Shown piece after piece: positions 3,664-43,564 of a stretch of 64,000 nt of DNA. The notes under the pieces are model-generated. The model ran no database searches and was not told where the DNA came from. It saw only the letters and a list, made by a program, of their open reading frames with translations. This stretch comes from Fibrobacterota bacterium. GTDB taxonomy: Bacteria > Fibrobacterota > Fibrobacteria > UBA11236. Each line of letters opens with the position of its first letter. Within the stretch, counting starts at the first letter, position 1. The DNA lies in NCBI GenBank assembly GCA_947482115.1, contig CANKII010000009.1:1-64000 (forward strand), given 5' to 3'. The position numbers were made by a program, and so were the translations under genes.

Positions 3664-4209
3664 ATGGCAAAGCGGAACTACAGCAAAGCGGCGTCGGTGT
3701 ATGCCAGAACTCTTTTGGAGCTCAGCTCTGAAAAGGGAATTCAGGCCGCACTGAAAACCGAGATGGAGATTTTACGCGATGTGTTCGCGAAAACTCCGGA
3801 ACTCGATCGCGCTTTGGGACTCCCTGCTCTTCCAGCCGAGAAAAAAGCCGCGCTGGCTAAATCGCTTTCGGAAAATTCCTCGGAACTTATGAAGCGGTTG
3901 ATTCGCCTTTTGGAAATCAAGGGACGTCTTGCGTTGCTCGGTTCCATTACCGAAGAATTTCTTCGTCTGGAGGAAGCCGGTCGCCATGTGCGTCGTGCAC
4001 GCGTGATCAGCGCGTTGCCTTTTTCCGCGGAACAACTGGAACATTTGTCCCAGGGACTTTCGGCACGACGTCCTGGTCAAACTTATTTGCTTCACAATGA
4101 AGTGGATCCATCCCTCATCGCGGGCTTCCGCGTGGAAGAGGAAGATTCCGTCATCGATGCCACTCTTCGTCACAAGCTCAACGCATTGCGGCACCATCTC
4201 GCCGCATAG
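3664..4209 (+). CDS. atpH: F0F1 ATP synthase subunit delta
   Basis: A 181-residue peripheral-stalk subunit that connects the b-dimer to the top of the alpha3beta3 head. It has the N-terminal helical bundle ([15 protein letters not shown]) and the C-terminal half ending in the family pattern of a Gly-Phe-Arg strand followed by Asp-Ser-Ser/Val-type residues and a terminal helix ([20 protein letters not shown]). It starts 2 bases after atpF and ends 8 bases before atpA, so the operon is tightly packed. Confidence 0.92.
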
Positions 4210-4217
4210 GAAACATC

Positions 4218-5753
4218 ATGTCGACTCAAATCAAATCGGACGAAATCAGCACCATCCTCAAGAAGCAACTGGAGAGCCTCGATCTCGCCAGCGATACTTA
4301 TGAGACGGGCACCGTGCTTCAAGTGGGCGACGGCATTGCCCGCGTGTTCGGTCTTTCCAAGGCCATGGCCGGCGAGCTCGTCGAAGTGCAAACGCTTGAG
4401 GGAAAAGTTTCGGGCCTCGTGCTCAACCTCGAATCCGACAATGCCGGTATCGCCATTCTCGGTTCCGATTCGGCAGTGAAGGAAGGGGACATTGTCACCC
4501 GCACCAATACCATCGCATCTGTTCCCGTGGGCGACACGATTTTGGGGCGCGTCATTAACGCCTTGGGTGAAGTCATTGACGGTGGCCCGGCTTTGGATCG
4601 CACGATCATGCGCCCCATTGAATTGAAGGCTCCCGGAATCATCCGTCGTCAGAACGTGCATGAGCCGCTCGAAACCGGCATCAAGGCCATCGACACCATG
4701 ATTCCCATCGGTCGCGGTCAGCGCGAATTGATCATCGGTGATCGCAAGACTGGCAAAACCGCCATTGCCATTGATACCATTATCAATCAGCGCGGCAAAG
4801 GTGTGAAGTGCATTTATGTCGGTATCGGCCAGAAGCAGAGCACCATCGCCATGGTGGTGGAAAAATTGCGCGCCGCCGGAGCGATGGAATACACTTGTGT
4901 CGTCGCAGCCAACGCTTCCGATCCCGCGCCGCTTCAGTATCTCGCGCCGTATTGCGGTGTGACCATGGGCGAGCATTTCATGTTCAACGGCGGACATGCG
5001 CTGTTGGTGTATGATGACTTGACCAAACAGGCGCAAGCCTATCGTCAGCTTTCCTTGTTGCTCCGCCGTCCGCCAGGCCGTGAAGCGTATCCCGGTGACG
5101 TGTTCTTTTTGCACAGCCGTTTGCTCGAGCGTGCCGCGAAAATGTCGGCGGAAGAAGGCGGCGGCAGTCTTACCGCGTTGCCCATCATTGAAACGCAGGC
5201 CGGCGACGTGTCGGCTTACATTCCGACCAATGTGATTTCGATTACCGACGGACAAATCTTTTTGGATGCCAATATGTTCAACGGTGGACAGCGTCCGGCT
5301 GTAGACGTGGGCCTTTCCGTTTCACGCGTGGGTGGCGACGCTCAAATCAAAGCGACCAAACAGGTTGCCGGTGCGTTGCGCTTGACTTTGGCCCAGTATC
5401 GCGAGTTGGCGGCGTTTTCGCAGTTCGCTTCCGATCTCGACAAGGCCACGCAAAAACAATTGGCGCGCGGTGCACGTCTGACGCGGTTGTTGCGTCAGGG
5501 TCAGTATTCGCCGTATCGCATTTCCAAGACCATCATGGTCGTGTTCGCGGGCAACCAGGGTTTCACCGATGAAATTCCCATGGAAGACATCGTGCGTTAT
5601 GAAACGGAAATGCTCCAGTTCATCGATGCGCGTTATGCCAAGTTGCTCGATGAAGTCGAAGAGAAGAAAAAGCTGGATGATGATTTGATGAATCGCATGA
5701 AGGCCGCCCTCACCGAGTTCGGCAAGCAATTTGCCGTGACCGCGAAGGGATAA
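4218..5753 (+). CDS. atpA: F0F1 ATP synthase subunit alpha
   Basis: A 511-residue catalytic-head subunit that carries the non-catalytic nucleotide site and the regulatory interface. The P-loop GDRKTGKT is at residues 174-181. The N-terminal beta-barrel (about 25-95), the central RecA-like domain (about 96-375) and the C-terminal helical domain are complete, and the length is normal. The alpha signature region [20 protein letters not shown] is intact. The flanking genes give the standard order H-A-G-D-C. Codon use matches the neighbours, with no sign of transfer. Confidence 0.97.
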
Positions 5754-5765
5754 CGGAACGACTCC

Positions 5766-6650
5766 ATGGCCGGCATCAAGGAACTCCGCCTTCGCATCAA
5801 GGCGCTGAAGAATAGCAGCAAGATCACCGCGGCCATGAAAATGGTGTCGGCGGCGAAGCTGAAGAAGTCGCAGGACGCGTATTCCCGCGCCAAGCCGTAT
5901 GCGGAGCGCATGGAAGAAATGCTGGCTCGTGTGCTGGCTTCGGTGGATGCGCCCGAACATCCGTTGGCAATTGTCCGTGATGTTCAAAAGGTTCGCTACG
6001 TGGTCATTTCTTCGGATCGCGGCCTTTGCGGTGGGTTCAACAACAACTTGTTCAAAGCCTTTGTCCGTCGTCCCGCCGATGTGTTTCCCGTGGAAGCGCT
6101 GGGAGTCGGACGCCGCGCCCATGAATTTTCCGTGCGTCTTCCGAAAGTTTCCAATGTTTCATGGGAAGCTTCGAACTTGCCGGTTTATTCCAACGCCGCG
6201 CAGATTGCACAGCATTTGATCAAGGATTATCTCGACGGCAAATGCGATAAGGTTGTGCTGGTGTACAATCGCTTTCGCAGCGTGTTATCGCAGCAACCGG
6301 TCTTTGTGCCACTGTTGCCGTTTTCGATGCCAACGGCAGGGGCGGGATTGAATCCCGCCCTTACGAACGCAGCAACGGCTGGGATGAAAGACGACTATTT
6401 CCTTGAGCCGGATGCGGCTGCGTTGTTTGCGGAGTTGCTCCCCAAGCTGGTGGAGCTGCAGGTGTTTCGCGGACTACTGGAAAACGCAGTAGGTGAACAC
6501 AGTGCGCGCATGACGGCGATGGAAAACGCCACCAAGAACACCAAGGATCTAATCAATTCACTGACTCTCACCATGAACCGTGCACGGCAGGCCGCCATTA
6601 CGCGCGAGCTCATTGAAATTGTGTCCGGTGCGGAAACGCTCAAGGGTTAA
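5766..6650 (+). CDS. atpG: F0F1 ATP synthase subunit gamma, with an in-frame repeat insertion
   Basis: A 294-residue central rotor shaft. The N-terminal helix (IKELRLRIKALKNSSKITAA) and the C-terminal helix ending in RQAAITRELIEIVSGAE are the conserved coiled-coil parts that turn inside alpha3beta3. Residues about 189-207 (PTAGAGLNPALTNAATAGM) read through a hairpin repeat of family A at 6336-6364. The reading frame stays open and the insertion falls in a variable surface region before the DDYFLEP segment, so the protein is probably functional. It starts 12 bases after atpA. Confidence 0.95.
   Translation: MAGIKELRLRIKALKNSSKITAAMKMVSAAKLKKSQDAYSRAKPYAERMEEMLARVLASVDAPEHPLAIVRDVQKVRYVVISSDRGLCGGFNNNLFKAFVRRPADVFPVEALGVGRRAHEFSVRLPKVSNVSWEASNLPVYSNAAQIAQHLIKDYLDGKCDKVVLVYNRFRSVLSQQPVFVPLLPFSMPTAGAGLNPALTNAATAGMKDDYFLEPDAAALFAELLPKLVELQVFRGLLENAVGEHSARMTAMENATKNTKDLINSLTLTMNRARQAAITRELIEIVSGAETLKG
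6336..6364. repeat. Family A palindrome inside atpG
   Basis: An 11-base perfect stem (GGGCGGGATT with G40 of the 5' arm, around a single G at 6350) extends outward with one G-T pair, one A-T pair and one mismatch, giving ends GCAGGGG/CCCTTAC that resemble the GTAGGGG/CCCCTAC ends of the other copies. It is translated in frame as part of subunit gamma. Confidence 0.75.
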
Positions 6651-8111
<1,461 letters not shown>

Positions 8112-8116
8112 TCGAC

Positions 8117-8524
8117 ATGCATCTGCAAATTTTAACTCCGGAAAAAACAGCCTTCGACGGCGAGGTGGAAAGCATCTCCGCGCCGGGTGAAGCAGGCGGC
8201 CTTGAAGTCCTCAAGGATCATGCGCCCATTTTGTCGAGTTTGATTCCCGGCGATGTGCGTTTGCTCTCCGGAGGCAAGGTGCAGAATTTCCATGTCAGCT
8301 TCGGGTTCCTCGAGTTCAGCCACAATCGCGGTGTGATTCTGGCGAATGCGGTGGAGAAGTCAGGCGAGATTGACATGGAACGGGTGATGGCGGCGAAGGA
8401 ACGCGCGGAGAAATATCTTGCCAGTTCCAAGCATGAAGTCGATGTTGCCCGTGCTCAGAAGGCTCTCATCCGTGCCCGCTCTCGCGAGAAATTTGTTCAG
8501 AAGATTGGGACTTCGGCGGGCTGA
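8117..8524 (+). CDS. atpC: F0F1 ATP synthase subunit epsilon
   Basis: A 135-residue subunit that couples the rotor to the c-ring and can inhibit ATP hydrolysis. The N-terminal beta-sandwich (residues about 1-85, starting MHLQILTPEKTAFDGEVESI) has the family pattern with the GEAGGLEVLKDHAP segment, and a C-terminal helical hairpin follows (about 92-132). It is the last gene of the atp operon. The next gene is on the opposite strand and ends only 24 bases further on; the gap has no strong hairpin terminator. Confidence 0.93.
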   Translation: MHLQILTPEKTAFDGEVESISAPGEAGGLEVLKDHAPILSSLIPGDVRLLSGGKVQNFHVSFGFLEFSHNRGVILANAVEKSGEIDMERVMAAKERAEKYLASSKHEVDVARAQKALIRARSREKFVQKIGTSAG

Positions 8525-8548: not shown

Positions 8549-9277
8549 TTATTTCAGGGAATCTAGAGCGCGTTGTAAATTCACATTATTCCGTTGTTGG
8601 ATAATATTCTTCGATGCAATATAGCGTTCCACTGTATTTAATACTTGTTTGGCTTCTCCTGAACTGATTTTACTTCTCCAATCATCAATAAAATCACCAT
8701 GACAATTTCTCGACTTTTCACCACTTCCACAAGGACATAGCCGATGTTTTTTGGAATCTTTTTCGGCAAGAATTCTAATAAACGCTAGGATAACTTCAGG
8801 ATCAGAAAATCCTAACATTTCGGAGTAAGCTTCAAACACTCCTTTTTCGCTGTGGCCGCGCTGATCAAAAGGCCAAGAACCGATTCGTTTTTTGTGCTCA
8901 AATCCAATATAAAAGGAGCGAACTACACCTTCCATAAATTCTACGAGGGTTGAACCTTCGGGCCAATACTTCCATCTTTCTCCTGGCACAAATAAACAAT
9001 GAGTGCCATCCTTTCCGGTATGATAGTGTTCGCTTCGGTCAATTTTTCCTTCTAACTCCCTAACTACTGGGATTCCTTTTGGAAAATCAATCGGTAACTC
9101 TACTTCGATTTCAAAGCGCTCTATCTCGCTACCTTCGTACATGAGATAGAACGGACCCTGAAAAAAAATTCTTTCGAATTTTTCCGCAGACTGTAATTCG
9201 GGAAAGGCATAACGCATTTGATCCAGGGTGCTCTGGTAAAATTCGGGATTTATTTTATGCCAACTTTTTTTAGCCAC
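8549..9277 (-). CDS. E2-conjugase-like protein with C-terminal SEC-C zinc motif
   Basis: With GTG at 9277 as start this is a 242-residue protein overlapping the upstream gene by 8 bases; a longer reading from 9421 is possible but would lie inside the neighbour. Residues about 30-140 resemble bacterial E2/ubiquitin-conjugase-fold proteins: a beta-meander ending in FEIEVELPIDFPKGIPVVRE, then HYHT (His84/His86), then GTHCLFVPGERW with candidate catalytic Cys94, a WP-rich turn, and a helix. Residues 181-193 form a SEC-C motif (Cys181, Cys183, Cys192, His193), a zinc-binding module often found in accessory proteins. It is the third gene of an operon with a metallo-beta-lactamase-fold protein and a membrane protein. 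The E2 call is from motif order only. Confidence 0.6.
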   Translation of the reverse strand: MAKKSWHKINPEFYQSTLDQMRYAFPELQSAEKFERIFFQGPFYLMYEGSEIERFEIEVELPIDFPKGIPVVRELEGKIDRSEHYHTGKDGTHCLFVPGERWKYWPEGSTLVEFMEGVVRSFYIGFEHKKRIGSWPFDQRGHSEKGVFEAYSEMLGFSDPEVILAFIRILAEKDSKKHRLCPCGSGEKSRNCHGDFIDDWRSKISSGEAKQVLNTVERYIASKNIIQQRNNVNLQRALDSLK

Positions 9278-10325
9278 AGTAATATGGCCTAGGACGCACA
9301 GTTGCCTCTTCTGCCATTTTTTTAATCGCGATTGTTTTCCAAGAGTCTTCTTTTTTGTCTTCGAGGGGGTAATCTTTCGCCAACTTACCATCATCGAACT
9401 TGGGGTTGGAATGTGAGCCATCCTCGTAAATGTCGAAGATTACTGTTTTGTGTGAGTCTCCCAAATGGAGGACGTTTTCTTTCTTGCCGATTTGATCGAC
9501 GTAGAGATCAACCGAATCGTCATGAGGATGGTCATGTGGGCTTTTCTTTTGCTCAGGTGCAGAAATGGCTACAAACTCTGGAGCGATAGCCTTTAGGGCG
9601 TCTAGGTAAGGCTCATCATCCTTATCTTCTTTAAAAAAAGAGCGTGAGCCATGGTGAGAGGCATCAAGCAAAAAGGCGCCTAGCCTTTCTTTATGGTATT
9701 CGGTAATGTGTTCACGAAAGGCCACTAAGTCAGCATCTCCAGTCACAAGCACCCAGGAAGGGTCCTTCCCAAACCGCAGGACAGCACAATGCTCATGGAT
9801 TCGACGAGCCCTAGCTTCAGCATCTTCATCACTAATATCATCTTTAACGTGATCGGCTGGGGCTAAAATGTTGTAATCGATATCGAAGAGCTTTTTCGTA
9901 TCTCGCGTCCCACTAAGTTCGACAATGGCATTTTTGCCGTTTCGAGTTTCTACTTCCTTAATGAGTTTGGTCAGATCGGAGAAATAGTTTCCACGTTCCT
10001 TACCGGGATTATGTCCAGAATGCCAAACATTTTCGATTTCAACAGCGGAAGAAATTTCGGAAATTCCTCGCAGATGATCATCATGTGGATGGGTATTCAC
10101 AAATGCATACAGTTTGGAGGAAAGATCCTTTAAAAGTAACGGAACATTGATCCCACCGCGCTCCTTATCCAAATTGGAATCAATAAGAAGGAGGCGGTAA
10201 TTGTTTCCATCACGAACAAATAACAGAATACAGGAGCCTTGGCCCACATATAAAAAGCAGGTCCTGAGAACGATTTTTGAATTGTCGGGCCAAAGAATTG
10301 ATTTGGCAGTATTTGTGTTCGGCAT
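9270..10325 (-). CDS. Metallo-beta-lactamase-fold hydrolase, ComEC-C-terminal type
   Basis: A 351-residue soluble protein with the complete metal-binding set of the MBL fold: HPHDDH (His79, His81, Asp83, His84), a downstream GDAD (Asp197) after a VLVTG strand, and DASHHGS (His224/His225). The opening FLYVGQGSCILL and the HHGSRS ending resemble the extracellular hydrolase half of ComEC and related nucleases or phosphodiesterases. It lacks membrane helices. Substrate is unknown; nucleic acid or a phosphodiester is plausible from the family. It starts 21 bases after the membrane-protein gene and ends inside the E2-like gene, so all three should be co-translated from one message. Confidence 0.82.
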   Translation of the reverse strand: MPNTNTAKSILWPDNSKIVLRTCFLYVGQGSCILLFVRDGNNYRLLLIDSNLDKERGGINVPLLLKDLSSKLYAFVNTHPHDDHLRGISEISSAVEIENVWHSGHNPGKERGNYFSDLTKLIKEVETRNGKNAIVELSGTRDTKKLFDIDYNILAPADHVKDDISDEDAEARARRIHEHCAVLRFGKDPSWVLVTGDADLVAFREHITEYHKERLGAFLLDASHHGSRSFFKEDKDDEPYLDALKAIAPEFVAISAPEQKKSPHDHPHDDSVDLYVDQIGKKENVLHLGDSHKTVIFDIYEDGSHSNPKFDDGKLAKDYPLEDKKEDSWKTIAIKKMAEEATVRPRPYYCG

Positions 10326-10346
10326 GTTTTTCCTTGGTCTAAGTGG

Positions 10347-10994
10347 TTAAGGGTTGATTTTTTCTTTGGAAAATTCTCGTTCAGCCATGAGCAAAACTTC
10401 GCGGGCATAATATGCGCCGCGTTGCCAAGCACGCCACGAAAAAAGCAGCGTTAATACTGCCAGAATAACAGTACTGAGCCAGAAATAATTTCTGATAGCA
10501 CTTTCAAAAAAATGAGAAAGGAGTAGAAGTGTTAAAATGGAAATCAGAAGAGTGGCTATGGAACGCAGGTAGGCATATTGTGCATTGAAGTCCTTGGCTT
10601 TGGAACTATCTAGGGATTCCACAACTGATATTGAGCGTAGGAAGATTGAACGTTCAGAAGCATCAGCACCGAAGTATTTGAGAAGTGTATTTTTAATTCG
10701 TGTGGCATCTTCTGCAGGTAGATAGCTGTCACCAAGTTTTCCAGCCAAGGCGAGGTCGGAGGGTTTACCTCCAAACATCTTGAATAAGGTGGGCTCAAAA
10801 AGACTTCCAATGGTTTGAATCAAAAGTCCGGCAACCATGGAGACAGCCAAGTAGGATATGACAACGAATTCACGAGGTAAATTGATGTCCAAAATTGTGG
10901 CTGTTTGTGGGAAGAGTACGGAAATGGCTGTCACCAAAAGGACACCTGGAATCAGTCCACTAAGAAAATCGTACAAGCGAAGTTTTTCAATCAT
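10347..10994 (-). CDS. Four-helix membrane protein, first gene of the accessory operon
   Basis: I do not recognise this 215-residue protein. It has two membrane helices near the N-terminus (about residues 9-29 and 42-66), a soluble middle of about 75 residues with a Lys/Asp-rich helix, then two more helices (about 143-163 and 168-188) and a basic C-terminal tail. Two-plus-two helix membrane proteins with a cytosolic middle are common partners in bacterial conflict operons, where they can act as pore-forming effectors, but that role is an inference here. The start ATG at 10994 is preceded by AAAAGGT. Confidence 0.65.
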   Translation of the reverse strand: MIEKLRLYDFLSGLIPGVLLVTAISVLFPQTATILDINLPREFVVISYLAVSMVAGLLIQTIGSLFEPTLFKMFGGKPSDLALAGKLGDSYLPAEDATRIKNTLLKYFGADASERSIFLRSISVVESLDSSKAKDFNAQYAYLRSIATLLISILTLLLLSHFFESAIRNYFWLSTVILAVLTLLFSWRAWQRGAYYAREVLLMAEREFSKEKINP

Positions 10995-11212
10995 GGTGAT
11001 ACCTTTTCCAGTAAGGACGCGTTTGGGATGATCGTTTCGAGTGAAGCGAATTCCCGTTTATTCGATGTATTGCTTGCGATTTCATTTGACCCAGTTAACG
11101 TATTTTGTATCTTTACGAAACCGTCAAGAGGCGGTCCGAAAAGAAGGGCTCATGCAAACTACACGAACCCGTATTTTAAAAAATTACTAAATCGTCATGG
11201 AGAATTCAAGGT
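10995..11212. promoter_or_regulatory. Divergent control region between the accessory operon and the XRE/ImmA pair
   Basis: This 218-base AT-rich gap separates divergent transcription units. On the plus strand TTGACC at 11086-11091 and TATCTT at 11108-11113 form a possible promoter with a 16-base spacer. On the minus strand TTGACG (complement of 11122-11127) and AATACG (complement of 11099-11104) form a weaker candidate that overlaps it. An inverted CGTA...TACG pair at 11099-11117 lies across both and could be the operator for the XRE protein. All of this is by eye, with no measured start sites. Confidence 0.35.
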
Positions 11213-11560
11213 ATGCCTGAAAATTTTGGGGATTCACTCCGAAAAGTACGTGAAAATCTGAAATTAAGTCAATCTGACCTAGCAAATCGGTCTGGATTAC
11301 AACCTTCAGCCATCTCTCATTTTGAAACTGGCAACCGATCCCCTTCCTTTGAAAACCTAAAACGCCTCTCTGAGGCGCTGGGTATCTCGATTGATTATTT
11401 GCTCGGTCGTAGTACGCAACTAGGGACGGTTACTCCTGTTGCCGAACAAATTTTTCGCGACTTCAGCAAAATGACGGCAAATGATCAAGAATCACTTGCG
11501 AAAATGGCGTCCTTTCTTGCGGAAAAAAACATGACAGATAAAGGTACAAGTAGTAAATAA
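11213..11560 (+). CDS. XRE-family transcriptional regulator
   Basis: A 115-residue repressor-type protein. A Cro/C1 helix-turn-helix lies at residues about 5-60 (the turn and recognition helix read SQSDLANRSGLQPSAISHFE), ending in the typical SIDYLLGRS. The rest is a short helical tail. It precedes an ImmA/IrrE-like peptidase by 9 bases; such pairs are known from phage and integrative elements, where the peptidase removes the repressor after DNA damage. It is divergent from the membrane/MBL/E2-like operon, so it probably controls that operon and itself (inference). Confidence 0.88.
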   Translation: MPENFGDSLRKVRENLKLSQSDLANRSGLQPSAISHFETGNRSPSFENLKRLSEALGISIDYLLGRSTQLGTVTPVAEQIFRDFSKMTANDQESLAKMASFLAEKNMTDKGTSSK

Positions 11561-11569
11561 TGAAATGCT

Positions 11570-12406
11570 ATGAGAACTGCTGAAATTGGTCGAGCCGAAA
11601 GAGCCGCTGAAAAAATACTTAGTGAGCTGAAATTAGATACGCTACCAATCTCTCCCTTTAAGATCGCTGCCGCTAAGGGAATCCATGTTGAGCCAAAAGT
11701 ATCAAGTGAACCTGGTGTGTCTGGGTTTTTAATGCGAATAGGCGATAGCTTCGGAATTTGTTACGCATCCCATATTAAAAATGAAGGATTCATTCACTTC
11801 AGTATTGCCCATGAAATCGGTCATTATTCTCTAGAAGGTCATGTAGATGCATTCTTTTCAAATGGAAATTCGATTCATGCATCGCGAAGCGGCTTTGTTT
11901 CCGACAATGAATATGAACGACAAGCCGACCATTTTGCTGCGGCACTATTAATGCCCGAAACCTTATTTAAGAAAGCCATCCAAACGGTTGGGTTTGGATT
12001 TCCAGCCATTGAGGCACTAAAAAATCTTTGCAAAACGTCTATTACTTCCACCGCAATCAGGTATGCCACTTTCACGTCTGACCCCGTGGCTGTGATTGTT
12101 AGTAAGGGGAAAAACATTGATTACTGTTTTATTTCTGACGCGCTAATGCAAATTCGTGGTGTCAAACGTGTTCCAAAAAACACGCCATTACCATTGAATG
12201 GTGGTACGATGCAGTTTAATAGCAATCAGGATCAAATCAATGGCGGTACCAAGGTTGAGGAGGCTTCCTTTTTAAACGATTGGTTTGATGGTGCTCCTGC
12301 AATTCGAATGAAAGAAGATATTGTAGGCTTGGGAAGTTATGGAAAAACCCTGACAGTACTTTTTACAGACGAGTCTATAGACGATGAAGAGGAAATAGAG
12401 GACTAA
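11570..12406 (+). CDS. ImmA/IrrE family metallopeptidase
   Basis: A 278-residue soluble protein. The zinc site HEIGH lies at residues 81-85, in AHEIGHYSLEGH, followed by the second family block, a helix with ADHFAAALLMPE that supplies the third ligand region. Relatives cleave XRE or DdrO-type repressors in response to damage (ImmA of ICEBs1, IrrE of Deinococcus). The XRE gene directly upstream is the likely target. The acidic C-terminus (TDESIDDEEEIED) is unusual. The stop codon is followed at once by repeat copy R1 at 12407, so this gene marks the right edge of the inserted block. Confidence 0.88.
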   Translation: MRTAEIGRAERAAEKILSELKLDTLPISPFKIAAAKGIHVEPKVSSEPGVSGFLMRIGDSFGICYASHIKNEGFIHFSIAHEIGHYSLEGHVDAFFSNGNSIHASRSGFVSDNEYERQADHFAAALLMPETLFKKAIQTVGFGFPAIEALKNLCKTSITSTAIRYATFTSDPVAVIVSKGKNIDYCFISDALMQIRGVKRVPKNTPLPLNGGTMQFNSNQDQINGGTKVEEASFLNDWFDGAPAIRMKEDIVGLGSYGKTLTVLFTDESIDDEEEIED

Positions 12407-12540
12407 AAACCGGGCGAATTCCGATTTTGCTTGCAGTAACTTATGATTTGGCCTTAACCCGGAGGAAGAACATGCGGGCATTCCATTTCATGACGGGAAA
12501 AAGTTGGAGTTGGATTGCGGCTTTGATGATCGGTTTGCCG
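12407..12540 (+). repeat. Copy R1 of the 5' region of the gene at 13162
   Basis: These 134 bases align without gaps to 13097-13230, about 90 percent identical by eye. The copy holds 65 bases of leader including the GGAGGAAG ribosome site, plus the first 23 codons of the secreted DUF1554-like protein. It begins directly after the ImmA/IrrE stop codon. Similarity ends just past the signal-peptide hydrophobic core. Confidence 0.9.
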
Positions 12541-12567
12541 ACGCTGCCCGTGAACACCGAAGGTTAA
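12472..12567 (+). pseudogene. Truncated copy of the DUF1554-like gene (31 codons)
   Basis: An open frame of 31 codons starting MRAFHFMTGKSWSWIAALMI, the same signal-peptide start as the gene at 13162, but running into unrelated residues and a stop at 12565. It keeps the ribosome site and start codon of the parent and could still be translated into a signal-peptide-like fragment. It is best read as the remnant left at the edge of an inserted block. Confidence 0.75.
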
Positions 12568-12600
12568 ATTCTTCCTAAGCCATTGAGCTATAATTTCACC

Positions 12601-12642
12601 ATGAATTTCGAATGGGATGCGGAGAAAGCCGCAAGCCATTAA
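12601..12642 (+). pseudogene. BrnT toxin remnant
   Basis: Thirteen codons reading MNFEWDAEKAASH and then a stop. This matches the usual N-terminus of BrnT ribonuclease toxins (M-x-F-E-W-D-x-x-K-A). Nothing else of BrnT or of its antitoxin BrnA follows; the hicB-like gene starts 19 bases later. It is a fragment left by deletion or recombination. The match is short, so chance similarity cannot be excluded fully. Confidence 0.5.
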
Positions 12643-12661
12643 ACGAACAGGAGCCGCCATT

Positions 12662-12883
12662 ATGCAAAAGCAATTCACAGCAATCATTGAACGCGAAGGC
12701 GACGGATACGTGTCCCTTTGTGCAGAGCTGGATATTGCCAGCCAAGGCGACACAATCGAAGAAGCGCGGGAAAACCTTCGGGAAGCGCTTGAGCTTTTTT
12801 TTGAAACCGCATCGCCGGAGGAGATTAGGCAGCGGTTACACGAAGAAGTCTACGTAACCCGCATGGAGATTGCCGTTGGGTAA
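12662..12883 (+). CDS. hicB: HicB-family antitoxin
   Basis: A 73-residue protein with the short HicB partial RNase-H-like fold: MQKQFTAIIEREGDGYVSLC, then ELDIASQGDTIEEARENL, and an amphipathic helix. This is the antitoxin of type II HicAB modules and neutralises the mRNA-cleaving HicA. It has no DNA-binding domain at its C-terminus, which fits the short HicB subclass. ATG at 12662 is preceded by CAGGAG. The end overlaps the hicA start region, the typical coupled arrangement with antitoxin first. Confidence 0.85.
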   Translation: MQKQFTAIIEREGDGYVSLCAELDIASQGDTIEEARENLREALELFFETASPEEIRQRLHEEVYVTRMEIAVG

Positions 12884-13095
12884 GCTCCGTGTTTTTTTCG
12901 GGAAGACAAGTCTGTTCAATTTTGGTGCGTCATGGTTTCATGGAGATACGCCAACATGGCAGTCATATCATAATGCAGAAGCAACTGCCCGGCACAACCA
13001 TTACCGTGCCTGTACCAAACCATGCGGAACTGCGCATTGGAACTCTTCTGTCCATCATTCGCCAATCGGGTGTTCTGCGTAGCGAGTTCGAGTAA
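12876..13095 (+). pseudogene. hicA: HicA-family toxin, frameshifted
   Basis: The toxin begins in one frame from TTG at 12876 as LGKLRVF, and continues in another frame from about 12895 as SGRQVCSILVRHGFMEI, then RQHGSHIIMQKQLPG and IRQSGVLRSEFE, which is a full HicA (dsRBD-like fold; active His in GSHIIM). The break is at a run of seven T at 12892-12898; six T would restore one frame. It may be a sequencing error, a real inactivating mutation, or slippage in the run. If the mutation is real, most toxin is not made. Confidence 0.8.
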
Positions 13096-13096
13096 T

Positions 13097-13230
13097 AAAC
13101 CGGACGAATTCCGGTTTTCCTTACAGTAACTTATGATTTGGCCTTAACGCGGAGGAAGAACATGCGGGCATTCCATTTCATGACGGCAAAAAATTGGAGT
13201 TGGCTTGCGACGCTGATGATCGGTTTGCCG
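13097..13230 (+). repeat. Copy R2, intact 5' region of the gene at 13162
   Basis: The intact partner of R1 (12407-12540), offset by exactly 690 bases. It begins one base after the hicA stop codon and runs into the functional DUF1554-like gene. As with R1, the copy starts directly behind the stop of the preceding accessory gene. Confidence 0.9.
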
Positions 13231-14142
13231 ATGATCGTACAAAGCCAAACGGTGGATTCCTCCCTCAGCTTCTTCATCACCAGCGACAGCATCGGACTCG
13301 GTGGCAATCTCGGCGGCTTGAGTGGTGCGGATGCGCATTGCCAGCAATTGGCCACTGCGGTGAATAAAGGCAATCGTCTGTGGCGCGCTTATCTCAGCAC
13401 ACAAACCTTGAACGGAATTCCAGCCGTCAACGCGCGCGATCGTATTGGAACCGGTCCGTGGTTCAACGCCAACAAAGTCAAGATCGCCTCAAATCTGACG
13501 GAGCTTCACACTGCTGGCACCAACATGCTCTCGCAAGCCAACGGCCTCACGGAAAAAGGCACCCAAATCCCCGCCACCCCAAACCGACACGACATGCTCA
13601 CCGGAACACGAGCCAACGGAACGGCCTATCTTGCAGGCGTGGACAGTACCTGCGCCAACTGGACCAGCAGCGCTTCAACCGGAAAGGCTATGCTCGGGCA
13701 TTTCAATCGCATGGGTGTGACCGGCAACATCGATCCTGCTTCCTGGGTCGAAGCGCATATTTCCAGTGGATGCACACAGGCCAATCTGGTATCCACCGGC
13801 GGCAGCGGACACTTTTATTGCTTTGCCGCAGACAACGCAACGCCTGTCCTGAAACATCTTCCCAAAACTGTGGGTGCGGCCAGCGACTTTACGCCCTACA
13901 TTCTCGGTGGGGGAGTGGGACAGAAAGAATTGGTTTACCGTTTTGCGCTCAAGCAACAAAGCCAAGTGCAAGTTTCCATTTTCGACTTGGAAGGTCATCG
14001 TCGAGCCGTCTTACTGGAAGGCATCCGTGGACCCGGAAATCATGAGGCTTATTGGAATGGAAGAGACGCCAAAGGGTCTCCGTTGCCGGTTGGCACCTAT
14101 GTCATCGTGCTTAAGCGGGATGGTCAAATACAGGGCCGATAG
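13162..14142 (+). CDS. Secreted DUF1554/endostatin-like protein with C-terminal FlgD-Ig-like sorting domain
   Basis: A 326-residue secreted protein. The signal peptide is residues 1-30 (basic start, hydrophobic core LATLMIGLPMIVQS). Residues about 33-230 match the DUF1554 or leptospiral endostatin-like type, with FFITSDS, GGNLGGLSGADAHCQ, WRAYLS and a final HFYCFAAD strand; four cysteines may form disulfides. The last 75 residues resemble FlgD-Ig or T9SS type A sorting domains (YRFALKQQSQVQVSIFDLEG through LPVGTYVIVLKRDG). ATG at 13162 with GGAGGAAG is chosen over an upstream TTG. Function is unknown. The 5' end is duplicated at 12407. Confidence 0.75.
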   Translation: MRAFHFMTAKNWSWLATLMIGLPMIVQSQTVDSSLSFFITSDSIGLGGNLGGLSGADAHCQQLATAVNKGNRLWRAYLSTQTLNGIPAVNARDRIGTGPWFNANKVKIASNLTELHTAGTNMLSQANGLTEKGTQIPATPNRHDMLTGTRANGTAYLAGVDSTCANWTSSASTGKAMLGHFNRMGVTGNIDPASWVEAHISSGCTQANLVSTGGSGHFYCFAADNATPVLKHLPKTVGAASDFTPYILGGGVGQKELVYRFALKQQSQVQVSIFDLEGHRRAVLLEGIRGPGNHEAYWNGRDAKGSPLPVGTYVIVLKRDGQIQGR

Positions 14143-30048: not shown

Positions 30049-30578
30049 TGCGTCACCCGCTTCGCGCCTGCAAAATGCGCCGCGAAGTACGGGGCGTCGA
30101 GACGGGTGTAATTGACGCCCACGCCGCTTTGGGAATGGATGAAATAGCCGTTGCCCATGTAAATGCCCGTATGCTCGATGAACAACATGCCCTTGAAGAA
30201 GATGATGTCATCGGGTTTGAGATCGCTTTTCAACACTTCGCGTCCGAAATTAGACATGGCGGAGGCATTGTGCGGCAGCTGAATGCCCATGGCTTCGTTG
30301 AATACCTGACGCACGAATCCCGAACAATCCATGCCATCGCGGGTTTGACCTCCGAAGAGATAGGATACGCCCAGATAGGACTCGGCCACTTTTTTCAACT
30401 TGGATGGCGAGTCCGCAACAGCGGCGGGACTTGTGGTCGAATAGTTTTGTCCGGCGGAGGAAATCCAGTCTCCGGCATCGCGGGAGTAATAAGGCCGCGG
30501 ACCTGTCGGAGCGCAGGAAAGAAACAGTATGGGAATGTATGGGATAATTAGGCGCACAGCCATGTAGGAGCGAATCAT
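30045..30578 (-). CDS. NlpC/P60 family lipoprotein (peptidoglycan endopeptidase)
   Basis: A 177-residue secreted hydrolase that cleaves cell-wall peptides. A lipoprotein-type signal ends at ILFLSC. The NlpC/P60 domain (about residues 62-175) has catalytic Cys in GMDCSGFVRQVF, His in FIEHTGIYMGNGYFIHSQSG and the usual Gly-Asp-Ile block (DIIFFKG). The start ATG at 30578 lies inside a family A palindrome, which also supplies a GAGG ribosome-site-like sequence 7 bases ahead; ATG at 30563 is an alternative. The gene lies between gatA and pheA on the minus strand and overlaps pheA. Confidence 0.9.
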   Translation of the reverse strand: MIRSYMAVRLIIPYIPILFLSCAPTGPRPYYSRDAGDWISSAGQNYSTTSPAAVADSPSKLKKVAESYLGVSYLFGGQTRDGMDCSGFVRQVFNEAMGIQLPHNASAMSNFGREVLKSDLKPDDIIFFKGMLFIEHTGIYMGNGYFIHSQSGVGVNYTRLDAPYFAAHFAGAKRVTQ

Positions 30579-30594
30579 TATTCGCCTCTACATG
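30561..30594. repeat. Family A palindrome at the gatA/nlpC junction
   Basis: Outer arms CATGTAGG and CCTCTACATG-type ends pair, with one G-T pair and one mismatch, and inner arms GCGAAT/ATTCGC flank a four-base loop. On the minus strand the loop region reads AATAATGATT, as in the copy at 42809. The element contains both the gatA stop codon (TAG) and the nlpC start codon. Confidence 0.85.
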
Positions 30595-36981: not shown

Positions 36982-37467
36982 ATGAAAGTCGAAGATCGTA
37001 AAGTCATTGGAATTGAATACACCCTGAAGGACAAGAGCGGGGAAGTGGTGGACACCAACGTGGGCGACGAGTCCTTGTTTTTCATACAGGGAACGGGAAG
37101 TATCGTACTTGGTTTGGAAAGAGCAATGTATGGTCGTCCGCTGGGCGATAGCTTCGAGATCGAAATCAAAGCGGCGGATGGCTACGGAGAATTCGACGAA
37201 AAGAAGATCCGCAAAATCCCGAAGTCGGTTGTGAAGAACCTGGGCGAAGTCACACCGGGTATGATGCTGCAGGCGCAAGGGCCGGATGGTATGGAGGTGG
37301 TGACGGTCACCAAGGTGACTGAGACCGAAGTTCATCTGGATTCCAATCATCCGATGGCCGGGAAGGATTTGTTCTTCGCCATTCGCATTGCGGAGATCCG
37401 GGATGCAACGGAGGATGAATTGGCGCATGGGCATGCGCACGGCCCCGGCGGCCATCACCATCACTGA
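36982..37467 (+). CDS. slyD: FKBP-type peptidyl-prolyl isomerase, SlyD-like
   Basis: A 161-residue cytoplasmic chaperone and prolyl isomerase. The FKBP half (VIGIEYTLKDKSGEVVDTN) holds the IF (insert-in-flap) domain at about residues 72-125, as in SlyD, and the FFAIRIAEIRDAT strand closes the fold. The His-rich tail GHAHGPGGHHHH could bind nickel or other metals. ATG at 36982 with CGGAG in front is preferred to a GTG two codons earlier. It stands as a single gene after the large secreted protein. Confidence 0.9.
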   Translation: MKVEDRKVIGIEYTLKDKSGEVVDTNVGDESLFFIQGTGSIVLGLERAMYGRPLGDSFEIEIKAADGYGEFDEKKIRKIPKSVVKNLGEVTPGMMLQAQGPDGMEVVTVTKVTETEVHLDSNHPMAGKDLFFAIRIAEIRDATEDELAHGHAHGPGGHHHH

Positions 37468-37511: not shown

Positions 37512-37994
37512 ATGTTGACTTTATCTGAAATCAAAACTGAAGTTGATAGTCTTGCGGCTAAGATAGGCCCTACAAAGCTTTATGATTTACCAACATATGG
37601 GCATTCGGAGGACGGGGCGCGTCCTCATATTGAAGTTGATTCCAGAGGCTATCACTATGTTATTGTGGAACGCGGACAGGAACTTTCGCGCTTCGTAACT
37701 CCCGAAATTGATGAGCTACTTTACAAGATTTTTGATCACATAACTTTTACGCTTGCCTTTAGATACGAGTTAGAAAATCGTGTTGAAATGCAGGATTGTA
37801 GGAGGATTGCATTTCATCGACAAGTAGAATTACTCGCGAAGTTATCACCGCGATGGGGACAACGTGAAGCCGAGGAACATGAAAGTATCTTACGCAGAAG
37901 CCCGTTTGATGACGCCTCCTTGGCTCGTGCTCTTTTAAGCACTCAAGTTGGTTGGGAAAAGGCGTGCGAACAATATCCACTTCCGACACCGTAA
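37512..37994 (+). CDS. Imm63-like immunity protein
   Basis: A 160-residue soluble protein resembling the Imm63 immunity family of polymorphic toxin systems: an early LPTYGHSEDGARPHIEVDSR, then GYHYVIVERGQELSRF, a helix with FRYELENRVEMQDCRR and an ending SPFDDASLARALL. No toxin gene is visible nearby, so it is an orphan that may protect against toxins of other cells. It is the first of three small genes, each followed by a copy of the 5' end of the gene at 38790; its own copy starts 10 bases behind its stop. The family call is by eye. Confidence 0.65.
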   Translation: MLTLSEIKTEVDSLAAKIGPTKLYDLPTYGHSEDGARPHIEVDSRGYHYVIVERGQELSRFVTPEIDELLYKIFDHITFTLAFRYELENRVEMQDCRRIAFHRQVELLAKLSPRWGQREAEEHESILRRSPFDDASLARALLSTQVGWEKACEQYPLPTP

Positions 37995-38004
37995 AAGGTT
38001 TAAC

Positions 38005-38039
38005 ATGAAAACCATAATCTTCGGTGCCAGCGGAATGGT
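38005..38039 (+). repeat. Copy F1 of the first codons of the gene at 38790
   Basis: These 35 bases are identical to 38790-38824 and code for the same start, MKTIIFGASGM plus two bases. The nine bases ahead (AGGTTTAAC) differ from those before 38790 (AGGTCTAAT) at two positions. Similarity stops abruptly in the Val codon. The copy lies 10 bases behind the Imm63-like stop codon. Confidence 0.92.
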
Positions 38040-38063
38040 CCGCGTGGCCCTCACATCACTAGA

Positions 38064-38291
38064 ATGAAAACAATTCGGATTAAGGTTAAACCCAATTCGC
38101 GCCTCAGTGAATTGGAGGAGGCGGACGACGGCTCCTGGCTTGCTAGGCTCAAGTCTCCACCGACTGACGGCAAAGCCAATGAAGAATTGTTGACGCTGAT
38201 TGCGCGAAGCTTCAATCGCCCCAAGTCGGCGGTGTCTCTAAAAAGCGGTGCGTCCGGCAGAATCAAGCTGGTTCAAATCGAAGGATTGTGA
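38064..38291 (+). CDS. DUF167 (YggU-like) protein
   Basis: A 75-residue protein with the DUF167 pattern: TIRIKVKPNSRLSELEE, LKSPPTDGKANEELLTLIA and VSLKSGASGRIKLVQI. The family is usually a single housekeeping-type gene of unknown function; many members lie near yggT or proC. Here it stands between copies F1 and F2, so it appears to have arrived as a small block. ATG at 38064 has no clear ribosome site of its own, and the end of F1 lies 24 bases upstream. Confidence 0.85.
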   Translation: MKTIRIKVKPNSRLSELEEADDGSWLARLKSPPTDGKANEELLTLIARSFNRPKSAVSLKSGASGRIKLVQIEGL

Positions 38292-38318
38292 TAGGTGGAA
38301 CAGAACAAAGCCATTTTT

Positions 38319-38350
38319 AAAACCATAATATTTGGTGCCAGTGGGATGGT
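38319..38350 (+). repeat. Copy F2, diverged, of the first codons of the gene at 38790
   Basis: These 32 bases match 38793-38824 at 28 positions (differences at the 12th, 15th, 24th and 27th). The ATG itself is not conserved. It begins 27 bases behind the DUF167 stop. Similarity ends at nearly the same base as in F1. Confidence 0.85.
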
Positions 38351-38380
38351 TGCTTACTTGGAACAAACAAAAACCAAGAC

Positions 38381-38788
38381 ATGAAAAGTCAAGGATTCAA
38401 TTACTTGATGATCAAATTTCGGATCATCTCGGATAAGCTAGACATAGGTGAAATTCAAAGTCAAATCAAATTTGATAACCCATCTAATTTTGCGGACATT
38501 TCCAAGCATGTTTTTCCAGAGAGTCATTCCGAAGAATACATTGCAAAAATTCAAATTGAAGGCCAAGACAAATGGGATCGGCTGAATCAAATCTTAAAAT
38601 GGGTAAAGCAAAACGAAACCGGAATTCAGCAAATCAAATCGACGTCCGACGTAAAGCTGGATGTGTCTATTATCTGTAACGTCAAAGGGATGAAGAATCC
38701 AATTCCTGAAGAGACAAAGGGACCGATAAACGGGATCACTTTTGTTGAAATAACTGTTCGGAGTGAAGCCAAGGAAAGCAAGGTCTAA
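38381..38788 (+). CDS. Hypothetical protein, possible immunity-type
   Basis: A 135-residue soluble protein I do not recognise firmly. It has alternating strands and one helix (DKWDRLNQILKWVKQNE) and resembles in length and layout the DUF4279-like proteins found among immunity genes, starting with a FRIISDKLDIGEIQ-type strand and helix. That is a weak suggestion only. It is the last small gene of the chain; its stop is followed after one base by copy F3, the true start of the next gene. Confidence 0.6.
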   Translation: MKSQGFNYLMIKFRIISDKLDIGEIQSQIKFDNPSNFADISKHVFPESHSEEYIAKIQIEGQDKWDRLNQILKWVKQNETGIQQIKSTSDVKLDVSIICNVKGMKNPIPEETKGPINGITFVEITVRSEAKESKV

Positions 38789-38789
38789 T

Positions 38790-38824
38790 ATGAAAACCAT
38801 AATCTTCGGTGCCAGCGGAATGGT
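38790..38824 (+). repeat. Copy F3, intact 5' end of the NAD(P)-binding gene
   Basis: This is the parent of F1 and F2: the first 35 bases of the functional gene. It codes for the nucleotide-binding loop GASGM. The stop codon of the previous gene lies one base upstream. Confidence 0.92.
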
Positions 38825-39452
38825 TGGAATGGGTGCGTTGCTGGAATGTCTCGATGATGTTCGAGTCGATTCGGTGTTGGTCATCGGTCGCAGTCCATGT
38901 GGAGTAAAGCACTCTAAACTCACGGAAGTTATCCATAAGGATTTCTACAACTTCACATCGATCCAAAATCATTTCATCGATTGCAATGCATGTTTCTTCT
39001 GCCTCGGAACATCCGCCGCAGGAAAAACGGAAGGCGAATACCATCATCAAACCTACGACCTGACGATGGCCGCCGCGCAGTCCATGCACGCCGCCAATCC
39101 AAACATGACCTTCTGCTATGTCTCGGGCGAAGGCACGGACAGCACCGAAAAAGGTCGCATCATGTGGGCGCGGGTGAAAGGGAAGACGGAGAACGCCCTG
39201 TTGAGGCTGTTTAACAAGGCCTACATGTTTCGCCCCGGTTTTATCCAACCCATGCGGGGTGAAAAGTCCAAAACCTACGGTTGGTTATATGTGGTATTGC
39301 GGCCTGTGGCCCCGTTATTCCGCCTGCTCTTCCCGAAGATGTCTACCACCACCATCAACGTGGCTCGCGCCATGTTGCGCGTGTCGTTGCACGGTGACCC
39401 ACAAAAGCTTCTGAACACGGTGGAAATCAACCGCGTGGCGGCTATTTCTTAA
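38790..39452 (+). CDS. NAD(P)-binding Rossmann-fold protein (SDR/HTATIP2-like)
   Basis: A 220-residue protein related to atypical short-chain dehydrogenases or NAD(P)H-binding epimerase-like proteins. The dinucleotide loop is GASGMVGMG at residues 7-15. A central CFFCLGTSAAGKTEGEYHH and YVSGEGTDSTEKGRIMWARVKG follow; the latter has the Ser/Lys pair but not the typical YxxxK motif in order. The last third is helical. The 5' end is copied twice upstream. The stop overlaps the end of the convergent gene by 11 bases. Confidence 0.82.
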   Translation: MKTIIFGASGMVGMGALLECLDDVRVDSVLVIGRSPCGVKHSKLTEVIHKDFYNFTSIQNHFIDCNACFFCLGTSAAGKTEGEYHHQTYDLTMAAAQSMHAANPNMTFCYVSGEGTDSTEKGRIMWARVKGKTENALLRLFNKAYMFRPGFIQPMRGEKSKTYGWLYVVLRPVAPLFRLLFPKMSTTTINVARAMLRVSLHGDPQKLLNTVEINRVAAIS

Positions 39453-40170: not shown

Positions 40171-40222
40171 ACGGAAACAAGCTAATTCATTCCCGGGATT
40201 TGAAATCCGGTAAAAAATGAAA

Positions 40223-40245
40223 AGTGTTCGTAGAATTCGAACACT
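40223..40245. promoter_or_regulatory. Palindromic operator candidate, copy 2
   Basis: AGTGTTCG and CGAACACT flank TAGAATT, the same as the site at 25750 except for one spacer base. It lies between the secreted-protein gene (start 40170, minus) and aguB (start 40268, plus). Since copy 1 lies upstream of only one gene, a secreted one, the secreted-protein gene is the more likely shared target. Confidence 0.6.
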
Positions 40246-40267
40246 CTCTAATTTTATCTTTGCCCCC

Positions 40268-41155
40268 GTGCCAAACAAGCCTTTTAAACTCGCCGTCGTG
40301 CAATGCAAGGGCAACGCGTTATTGCCCGAGCGTTTTGCCCGTCTTCAGGATTTGATCCGTGAAGCCGCGCGCGGTGGTGGTCAGACCGTACTGTTACCCG
40401 AACTCATCTTCCACGATTATTTCTGCATTGAGGAAAACATCCGCAACTTTGACCTCGCGCATGGACTCGACACCGAGCCTGTGAAGAAGTTGCAGGGCTT
40501 GGCCAGGGAATTGGGAATAGCTTTAGTGCTGCCGTTTTTCGAAAAACGCGCAGCAGGGGTGAACTACAATTCCGCCGCGGTGTTCGATGCGGACGGATCG
40601 CTGGCGGGACTTTACCGCAAAATGCACATCCCGCATGATCCCGGTTTCAACGAGAAGTATTACTTCGCCCCCGGCGATCTCGGATTCAAATCCATTCCTA
40701 CCCAGCATGGAAAATTGGGCGTGCTGATTTGCTGGGATCAATGGTTTCCCGAAGGTGCGCGGCTCACGGCTTTGCAAGGCAGTGATGTATTGCTGTATCC
40801 CACGGCCATTGGTTGGGATGATGCGGAGTCGGGACAGGTTTCTTCCGATGAAGCCAAAGCTTTGGAAGCACGGCATCTGGATGCATGGATCACCATTCAG
40901 CGCAGTCATGCCATTGCGAATGGAGTGTATGTGGCCGCAGCGAATCGTGTCGGTCGCGAAGGCCATCTCCGTTTTTGGGGCAACTCCTTCATCGCCGGAC
41001 CGGGCGGAGAAATCCTCGCGCAAATGGATTCGGAAAAAGAAGGCGTGATTTACGCCGACATCGATCCCGGTCGTGTGGAAATGGAACGCCGTGTATGGCC
41101 CTTCTTCCGAGATCGCCGCATCGATGCCTATAAAGGAATGATGGAACGGGGATGA
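40268..41155 (+). CDS. aguB: N-carbamoylputrescine amidase
   Basis: A 295-residue nitrilase-superfamily enzyme that hydrolyses N-carbamoylputrescine to putrescine. The Glu-Lys-Cys triad is present: LPELIFHDYF, YRKMHIPHDPGFNEKYYF and GVLICWDQWFPEGAR. The last 30 residues show the AguB type (VWPFFRDRRIDAY). The start is GTG at 40268 (VPNKPFKLAVVQ); an ATG at 40217 would run through the palindrome. It overlaps aguA by four bases. Together they form the agmatine-to-putrescine route. Confidence 0.92.
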   Translation: MPNKPFKLAVVQCKGNALLPERFARLQDLIREAARGGGQTVLLPELIFHDYFCIEENIRNFDLAHGLDTEPVKKLQGLARELGIALVLPFFEKRAAGVNYNSAAVFDADGSLAGLYRKMHIPHDPGFNEKYYFAPGDLGFKSIPTQHGKLGVLICWDQWFPEGARLTALQGSDVLLYPTAIGWDDAESGQVSSDEAKALEARHLDAWITIQRSHAIANGVYVAAANRVGREGHLRFWGNSFIAGPGGEILAQMDSEKEGVIYADIDPGRVEMERRVWPFFRDRRIDAYKGMMERG

Positions 41156-42192: not shown

Positions 42193-43564
42193 TCCCGGAG
42201 TTGCCGCACGCCAGACTGCGTGGCGCATTTTGATGGAACAGGAATCCCACGGGGTTTTTCTTAAAGATCTGTTCGCCTCGCGTCTCCGTGAATTTTCCCA
42301 TGAAGACGAGGATCTGATCCGCAACATCTGTCTCGGCGTCATCCGCTGGAAACGATTGCTGGATTACAACCTTGGGTTGCAAGCCGTGCGCGGGATCAAG
42401 GATGCGCGGCTGCGCATGCTCATGCGCATGGGAGCCTATCAACTCTTTTTCCTTAACGGCATCCCGGCCTTTGCTGCCGTAGACACGGCGGTGCAACTCG
42501 CCAAGCGTGAGTTTGGAAAATCCGAGGCGGGCTTCACCAATGCCGTACTCAAGGCTTTGTCGCGAAACGGGCTACGGCATCAAACGGTGAAGAACAAAAA
42601 AGATCTCAAGGCGCTAGCGGTGAACACGTCGCATCCGGACTGGCTGGTGGAACGTTGGAGCAAAGCACTTGCGCCGGAAGCGTTGACCTCCGCGCTGCAA
42701 CGCAATAACGAAGAAGCGCCGTTGTGGATTCGTATCAATTCACGTAAGACGAGTGTTGAGGCGGCGACGGAGATTTTGCGTGTGGATGGTGTGGATTTGG
42801 AGCCGGTTGTTGGGGCGAATAATGATTCGCCCTTACAGAACCCGGTATTTTTTATGCGGTTGATCCACGGTGCGGACAAGGCTTTGCGCAGCGAGTTATT
42901 TGCACAGGGTGGGTTTTCTTTTCAGGATCCCGTGGCCTATTGGGTTGCAACCTTGCTGGATTGGCATCCAGGTCAAACCGTTTTGGATGCCTGTTCTGCG
43001 CCAGGCGGAAAATCGGCATTGCTGCTGGAGATGGCTGCAGCGCGTGGTGAGGATATTGAACAAGCACGCATCATTTCTGGCGATTCGAGTTTCTCGCGAT
43101 TGCGAAAAATCCGTGATGCTCGTGTACGATTGGGTCATCGTGAATTGCTCCCCGTTTGTGCCGACCTAATGTATTCTCCGTTCCGTGGGGCAGGGGAAGG
43201 ATTTGATCGTATTCTGATCGATGCACCCTGCAGCAACCTCGGTGTGTTGCGTCGCCGACCTGAAGCCAGATGGAATCTCACACCGGAAAAAGCTGCGGCA
43301 CAGGCCGTGCATCAACGTGAGTTGTTGGAAAAAGCGGCCGAGTTACTCGCACCTAACGGGCGACTTGTTTATGCCACTTGCAGCGCGGAGCCGGAAGAAA
43401 CGGTCAATGTGGTGGATGATTTCATTTCACGTCATCCCGAATTCAAACTGATTGATGTTGGAGAAAACATTCCCACAGTCTTGCGCAAACGCGGATGCTT
43501 GTGGGTGTATCCCGGTGAAACCGAGTACGACGGATTTTTTGCAGCCGCATTGATTCGGTCTTGA
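42173..43564 (+). CDS. rsmB: 16S rRNA (cytosine(967)-C(5))-methyltransferase
   Basis: A 463-residue enzyme with an N-terminal NusB-like RNA-binding domain (about residues 10-145) and a C-terminal Rossmann methyltransferase (about 235-460). The two active cysteines are present: PCSNLGVLRRRPE and YATCSAEPEETV; the SAM loop reads VLDACSAPGGKSALLLEM. TTG at 42173 with GAGG in front is the likely start, with ATG at 42233 as alternative. Residues 214-222 (GANNDSPLQ) are encoded by a family A palindrome at 42809, between the two domains. Confidence 0.9.
   Translation: MPSLPDNPGVAARQTAWRILMEQESHGVFLKDLFASRLREFSHEDEDLIRNICLGVIRWKRLLDYNLGLQAVRGIKDARLRMLMRMGAYQLFFLNGIPAFAAVDTAVQLAKREFGKSEAGFTNAVLKALSRNGLRHQTVKNKKDLKALAVNTSHPDWLVERWSKALAPEALTSALQRNNEEAPLWIRINSRKTSVEAATEILRVDGVDLEPVVGANNDSPLQNPVFFMRLIHGADKALRSELFAQGGFSFQDPVAYWVATLLDWHPGQTVLDACSAPGGKSALLLEMAAARGEDIEQARIISGDSSFSRLRKIRDARVRLGHRELLPVCADLMYSPFRGAGEGFDRILIDAPCSNLGVLRRRPEARWNLTPEKAAAQAVHQRELLEKAAELLAPNGRLVYATCSAEPEETVNVVDDFISRHPEFKLIDVGENIPTVLRKRGCLWVYPGETEYDGFFAAALIRS
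42809..42836. repeat. Family A palindrome inside rsmB
   Basis: Arms of GGGGCGAAT and ATTCGCCC pair around a short AATG loop, with ends GTTGGGG/CCCTTAC close to the consensus GTAGGGG/CCCCTAC. The inner part is the same as in the copy at 30561. It is in frame and falls in the linker between the NusB and methyltransferase domains. Confidence 0.85.

Follow-up and report, generated by a model that had tools for sequence, protein, structure and literature searches.

The analyzed window (64,000 nucleotides; positions 1 to 64,000 of contig CANKII010000009.1 in the Fibrobacterota bacterium assembly GCA_947482115.1) includes a run of small genes in which the 5' end of a gene for an NAD(P)-binding protein occurs three times. 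The two truncated copies (F1 and F2) and the start of the intact gene (F3) each follow a different small gene, and the run lies between two conserved flanking genes. Below, truncated copies of this kind are called scars and the intact gene is called the anchor; G002 is a genome of the same genus.

36982..37467, + strand: FKBP-type peptidyl-prolyl isomerase (Pfam FKBP_C), resident left flank; 61% identical and syntenic in G002
37512..37994, + strand: Imm63 immunity-like gene (Pfam Imm63, E value 6e-25; GC3 35%), apparently acquired
37995..38039, + strand: F1 scar, 5' end of the NAD(P)-binding gene (10 leader and 35 coding bases; 43/45 identity)
38005..38067, + strand: candidate 20-codon ORF (from translation), F1 fused to a foreign tail, stop codon overlapping the DUF167 start
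38064..38291, + strand: DUF167 (YggU) gene (Pfam DUF167), resident; 75% identical and syntenic in G002
38295..38384, + strand: 29-codon ORF (from translation) with F2 inside, stop codon overlapping the next start
38319..38352, + strand: F2 scar, diverged 5' end of the NAD(P)-binding gene (30/34; all 4 coding differences silent)
38381..38788, + strand: g3, small gene of unknown function (GC 38%; no match in relatives), apparently acquired
38790..39452, + strand: intact NAD(P)-binding gene (NmrA-like, Rossmann; Pfam and other searches), the anchor, whose start is F3
40217..41155, + strand: carbon-nitrogen hydrolase (Pfam), resident right flank; 84% identical and adjoining DUF167 in G002

The three copies reported in the first-pass annotation were confirmed. 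F1 (38005-38039) is identical to F3 (38790-38824) at 35/35 bases, and with 10 leader bases included (37995-38039 versus 38780-38824) the identity is 43/45 (8/10 in the upstream bases). F2 matches F3 at 28 of the 32 bases of positions 38319-38350, as had been claimed, and the match extends to position 38352 (30/34). Local alignment gave scores of 40 and 24, whereas the best of 20 shuffles reached 14. The gaps between stop codon and copy (10, 27, and 1 bases for Imm63, DUF167, and g3, respectively) were also as previously given, as were the nearly equal break points, which fall at the equivalent of position 38824 for F1 and 38826 for F2 (at most 2 bases apart). Beyond the junctions with unrelated sequence, at 38039/38040 (F1) and 38352/38353 (F2), the open frame of each truncated copy runs through unrelated codons to a TGA that overlaps the start codon (ATG) of the following gene; the predicted translations are MKTIIFGASGMV-RVALTSLE* (F1) and VEQNKAIFKTIIFGASGMV-AYLEQTKTKT* (F2). 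A whole-genome DNA search, one of the checks proposed with the initial claim, returned only the places of F1, F2, and F3. There were no extra copies of the gene start among 80 NAD(P)-binding homologs from other phyla or in 167 other genomes of the phylum.

The gene order in G002 is FKBP, methyltransferase, DUF167, carbon-nitrogen hydrolase, and deiminase (the last 75% identical), and its FKBP-methyltransferase-DUF167-hydrolase segment represents the state of the locus without acquired genes. Because the DUF167 gene occupies the same order in G002, is present as a single copy in 11 of the 15 relatives searched, and has a host-like composition (GC3 of 59%), it is a resident of the locus and not a cassette; the chain therefore does not consist of three equivalent cassettes. 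Imm63 occurs in 1 of 61 related genomes (i.e., in none of the 60 relatives), and g3 had no match in the 60 relatives, viral contigs, or plasmids. The GC contents of these two genes (44% for Imm63 and 38% for g3) differ from the 52 to 54% of their neighbors, and only these two look acquired here. The NAD(P)-binding gene has a host-like composition, and its nearest G002 homolog (48% identity) lies at another location. The short tail of F1 could plausibly be the end of the methyltransferase gene present at this position in G002. The proposal that the start of the NAD(P)-binding gene serves as an entry point for small accessory genes thus stands in part: the start appears to have been used more than once, with Imm63 and g3 as acquired genes, but DUF167 is a resident.

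A second locus in the window has a similar architecture around a different anchor, with the following features.

8549..12406, no strand assigned: defense module left of the scar, with E2-like, MBL-fold, Csx27-like membrane protein, and CapH-CapP genes (PADLOC)
12407..12541, + strand: scar, leader and first 23 codons of a DUF1554-like gene; 92% identical to 13097-13231
12617..13095, + strand: toxin-antitoxin pair (HicB-like and HicA) separating the two copies (Pfam HicA_toxin, E value 5e-18)
13097..14142, + strand: intact DUF1554-like gene with its leader, serving as the anchor here; directly downstream of atpC in G002

The repeat is 135 bp long (leader plus gene start), and the PADLOC E values of the defense module are 1e-50 for E2, 9e-57 for capP, and 3e-21 for capH. 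The G002 counterpart (atpD-atpC-DUF1554) contains no acquired genes. Positions 8549-13095 of the window form a defense island between atpC and the DUF1554-like gene, in which a BrnT-like truncated start (MNFEWDAEKAASH*) was also read by eye at about position 12602.

Surveying 1.26 of the 2.72 Mb of the same genome, with crude gene calling (longest open frames) and scoring only direct repeats of at least 28 bp and at least 84% identity, led to the identification of five or six loci, besides that of the NAD(P)-binding gene, with partial copies of gene starts or ends (28 to 142 bp). These loci often adjoin defense or toxin-antitoxin genes, and their repeats differ in sequence and length. At L119, 142 bp of the 3' end of a glycerol-3-phosphate dehydrogenase-like (glpD-like) gene was copied, and at L204, 51 bp of the 3' end of a Pyr_redox gene. 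L214 (2046-4226; G000:C3:60546-62726) includes four cation-efflux gene ends, one intact and three truncated with break points within about 12 bases, which separate an NmrA gene, a PIN-domain toxin gene, and a bSEFIR gene. L198 (253-8574; G000:C2:240253-248574) includes four 3' ends of one gene, again with one intact, between accessory genes; the end encodes ...EVVFGNAYKN*, with the variants VVFGNTYKN and AVFGNMYKN. The count is given as five or six because it is uncertain whether L208 (10516/11589), where the end of a 355-amino-acid gene is copied just before its own start, represents a scar. In G001 (0.72 Mb surveyed), there was a single case, L237, in which a citrate synthase gene end together with its terminator (217 bp) is duplicated (5606-5820 and 6857-7073), the copies flanking two small genes in an AT-rich insert. 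No scars were detected in 0.26 Mb of G002 and G003, 0.2 Mb of G007, 0.2 Mb of Escherichia coli K-12, or 0.2 Mb of G025 (the last after exclusion of a CRISPR array and a low-complexity repeat). The comparison of six or seven cases with one (P = 0.03 to 0.016) is only suggestive of an excess in this genome, given the few events and the uneven choice of sequences. The G025 repeats were rejected as scars, being mostly a CRISPR array, and a 35-bp repeat at L144 in G001, considered as a gene-start copy, proved to be an unrelated intergenic palindromic repeat. L119 also contains two exact 36-bp copies of a terminator hairpin (1326-1361 and 5813-5848), 4.5 kb apart, one after an isocitrate-dehydrogenase-like gene and one after a secreted-protein gene, and at L198, 29 bp of a small antitoxin-like gene (positions 8362-8390) recur at 4030-4058.

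The four differences between F2 and F3 are all silent third-position changes, indicating that F2 derives from another functional allele and not from a decayed duplicate. Across the 11 truncated copies with differences, amino acid changes were rarer than expected at random (Fisher combined P = 2e-5, a value that is only approximate because copies from the same locus are not fully independent). Individually, the bias was significant for F2 (P = 0.002), L204 (P = 0.007), L214 copy 2 (P = 0.002), and the G001 citrate synthase (P = 0.006); it was not significant for the other scars and was absent in the DUF1554 scar and L214 copies 3 and 4. Such a bias indicates that these copies were under selection on the encoded protein until recently and hence that each goes back to a different, functional allele of its anchor gene. 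Tandem duplication followed by decay, named in the first-pass annotation as the origin that would overturn its reading, is disfavored by this bias.

We consider it probable that the repeated gene starts are scars of insertions that used homology at one conserved gene and an illegitimate junction just inside that gene. The process would involve a conserved gene (here the NAD(P)-binding gene) beside a variable spot and, on several occasions, the uptake of DNA from related cells in which other genes adjoin their own allele of that gene. One side of the incoming DNA would be joined by homology at the conserved gene and the other by an end-joining (illegitimate) junction; with this junction a few dozen bases inside the gene, the new gene would be left beside a whole anchor and the old gene beside a truncated previous allele. 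Two such events would produce the arrangement Imm63-F1 | DUF167-F2 | g3-anchor. Imm63 would have arrived first, followed by DUF167 with the F2 allele and then by g3 with the present allele; we infer that DUF167 was restored from a strain that had kept it. As for the underlying chemistry, a linear fragment may have entered by homology-facilitated illegitimate recombination, or a circularized fragment with trimmed ends by a single crossover.

One-sided homology is the simplest process that would yield a whole anchor next to the newest module, a truncated allele next to the older one, and repeats of any length from both kinds of gene end with no recombinase. The inserts have an intact anchor at one border and a truncated allele at the other, and the same architecture occurs at unrelated genes, involving both 5' ends (12407/13097) and 3' ends (L119, L214, L198, and L204), and at the citrate synthase gene of G001. 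Imm63, g3, and several of the other modules are AT-rich accessory genes, and the genome contains DprA and ComEC genes. The repeat lengths (28 to 217 bp) and the lack of a shared sequence are as expected if homology, and not a site, was used. According to the account in PMC3240628, which cites de Vries and Wackernagel (2002) and Prudhomme et al. (2002), homology-facilitated illegitimate recombination has been shown in the competent species Streptococcus pneumoniae, Acinetobacter baylyi, and Pseudomonas stutzeri. In E. coli, 56 of 60 one-sided events were single crossovers by end-trimmed circles, which left partial anchor duplications of 109 to 950 bp (PMC3240628). Only second junctions inside the anchor would leave visible scars, and long repeats would tend to be deleted again while short ones survive.

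Several points weigh against the proposal of one-sided insertion. Deletions, and not duplications, are the usual outcome of classical homology-facilitated illegitimate recombination (PMC3240628). For RecA, 35 bases is a short anchor, although homology with the donor could have extended beyond the scar. No strain in an intermediate state was found among the comparison genomes, which contain no conspecific. The within-locus clustering of break points (35/37 for the NAD(P)-binding gene, 40/48/52 for cation efflux, and 30/33/63 for L198; permutation P = 0.026 to 0.035) counts against the model and hints at a constraint; it may reflect chance, a narrow range of survivable lengths, or a boundary inherited with module and scar together. 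The last of these would fit an integrase-free cassette system in which short ends of ordinary genes are portable tags of homology and a module travels together with its tag, re-inserting at any locus that carries the gene in question; such arrays would inherit their inner boundaries, with clustering as the signature. We regard this variant as quite improbable.

The first-pass annotation had read each block as a gene plus a 3' recombination site, as in integrons, and this interpretation was not supported. An array built by an integrase acting in trans or since lost (a CALIN-like cluster), with the gene 5' end as its site, would account for the location of every copy directly after a stop codon and for the nearly equal break points. 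F1 lies between the arms of an 8-bp inverted repeat (GGTTTAAC/GTTAAACC), and folding of its region was stronger than in shuffled sequences (z scores of -2.4 and -2.8), but the right arm of this repeat lies inside the DUF167 coding sequence, and the moderate fold is explained by a chance-sized inverted repeat reaching into that gene. In single-strand DNA folding for attC-like structures, F2 and F3 gave z scores near 0, the R-box motif GTTRRRY occurs at chance frequency only, and the copies had no Rfam match. The proposed search for a tyrosine recombinase, performed on this 99%-complete genome, returned only two, XerC and XerD, whose best-scoring models are XerD/XerC and whose IntI scores fall far short of the cutoff. 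The residency of DUF167 also speaks against a cassette array, as do the other loci, whose repeats (28 to 142 bp elsewhere in this genome and up to 217 bp overall) are unrelated in sequence and represent 5' ends of some anchor genes and 3' ends of others, a pattern not predicted for a site-specific recombinase. An integrase-driven array is thus very unlikely. Target-site duplication by a transposon was rejected because the repeat lengths vary (28 to 217 bp) and some loci have at least three copies; no inverted repeats bounding the inserts were found.

Among the remaining alternatives, local template switching or slipped repair, in which a fork copies foreign DNA and re-enters upstream, would yield the same flanking direct repeats of variable length. 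The near identity of F1 and F3 (43/45) and the location of the F1 junction in a 9-bp hairpin (GCCAGCGGA-ATGG-TCCGCgTGGC) are consistent with it, but repeats formed in this way start out identical and a dead copy then changes at random, whereas the differences in F2 and other scars are mainly silent; we consider this origin unlikely. A tandem duplication of the gene, later interrupted or internally deleted to leave start fragments, is less likely still. Nine bases of the F1 tail (CCGCGTGGC) match the final codons of the intact gene, which would allow F1 to be a copy with an internal deletion. The remainder of that tail and the entire F2 tail, however, do not match the gene's end, the copies are separated by different genes, and the silent bias of F2 is evidence against decay; the 3'-end loci would, in addition, require a mirror process. 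Misassembly is conceivable in a 15-contig draft of the metagenome type but exceedingly improbable, since the copies, just 34 to 45 bp long, are not identical in sequence and several loci with a coherent gene content show the same pattern.

One-sided insertion as proposed here resembles the sequential displacement of type VI secretion effector-immunity modules in Vibrio cholerae (Kirchberger et al. 2017; PMC5361080). That study put forward this process for the immunity arrays of the species and drew a comparison with integrons (PMC5361080). Both accounts postulate successive insertions by homology on one side, with homology-facilitated illegitimate recombination as the suggested mechanism; older genes are pushed along, orphan immunity genes accumulate, and the result looks integron-like with no integrase. 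In V. cholerae, it is the conserved upstream portion of the effector module that serves as the anchor, with displacement of the old effector, whereas here ordinary conserved genes are the anchors, through either of their ends, and the trace is a gene-end scar of 28 to 217 bp. The combination of one homologous and one illegitimate end with partial anchor duplications is shared with homology-facilitated illegitimate recombination and single crossovers; the laboratory duplications were 109 to 950 bp (PMC3240628), whereas those here are mostly 28 to 63 bp, possibly because longer repeats were lost by recombination. Like integrons and attC clusters lacking an integrase, the array combines small accessory genes with related sequences just after their stop codons; unlike integrons, it has no integrase and no conserved folding site, its repeats are locus specific, and a resident gene lies inside it. 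Acquired interbacterial defense clusters of Bacteroidales carry orphan immunity genes in arrays, and the recombinase-associated kind includes a tyrosine recombinase. No tyrosine recombinase lies near the present locus, which sets it apart from that kind. Such Bacteroidales clusters are among the systems named in PMC12247911.

The entry of accessory and defense genes by means other than a dedicated mobile element is hard to see afterwards. If the scars are the footprint of one-sided insertion, they provide a simple, searchable signature that marks the anchors, reveals the order of arrival, and would permit estimates of the rate of this route across genomes. Several scars border antiphage or toxin-antitoxin modules (i.e., E2/CapH-CapP, HicBA, a PIN toxin, bSEFIR, and an AriA-like gene with DUF4276) and therefore may show the growth of some defense islands. 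The window also contains dispersed repeats of other types, including an inverted GGGGCGAATAATNATTCGCC type at 30563-30592 and 42808-42837 and a CTGAGCTTGTCGAAGG type at 29282, 43575, and 44720.
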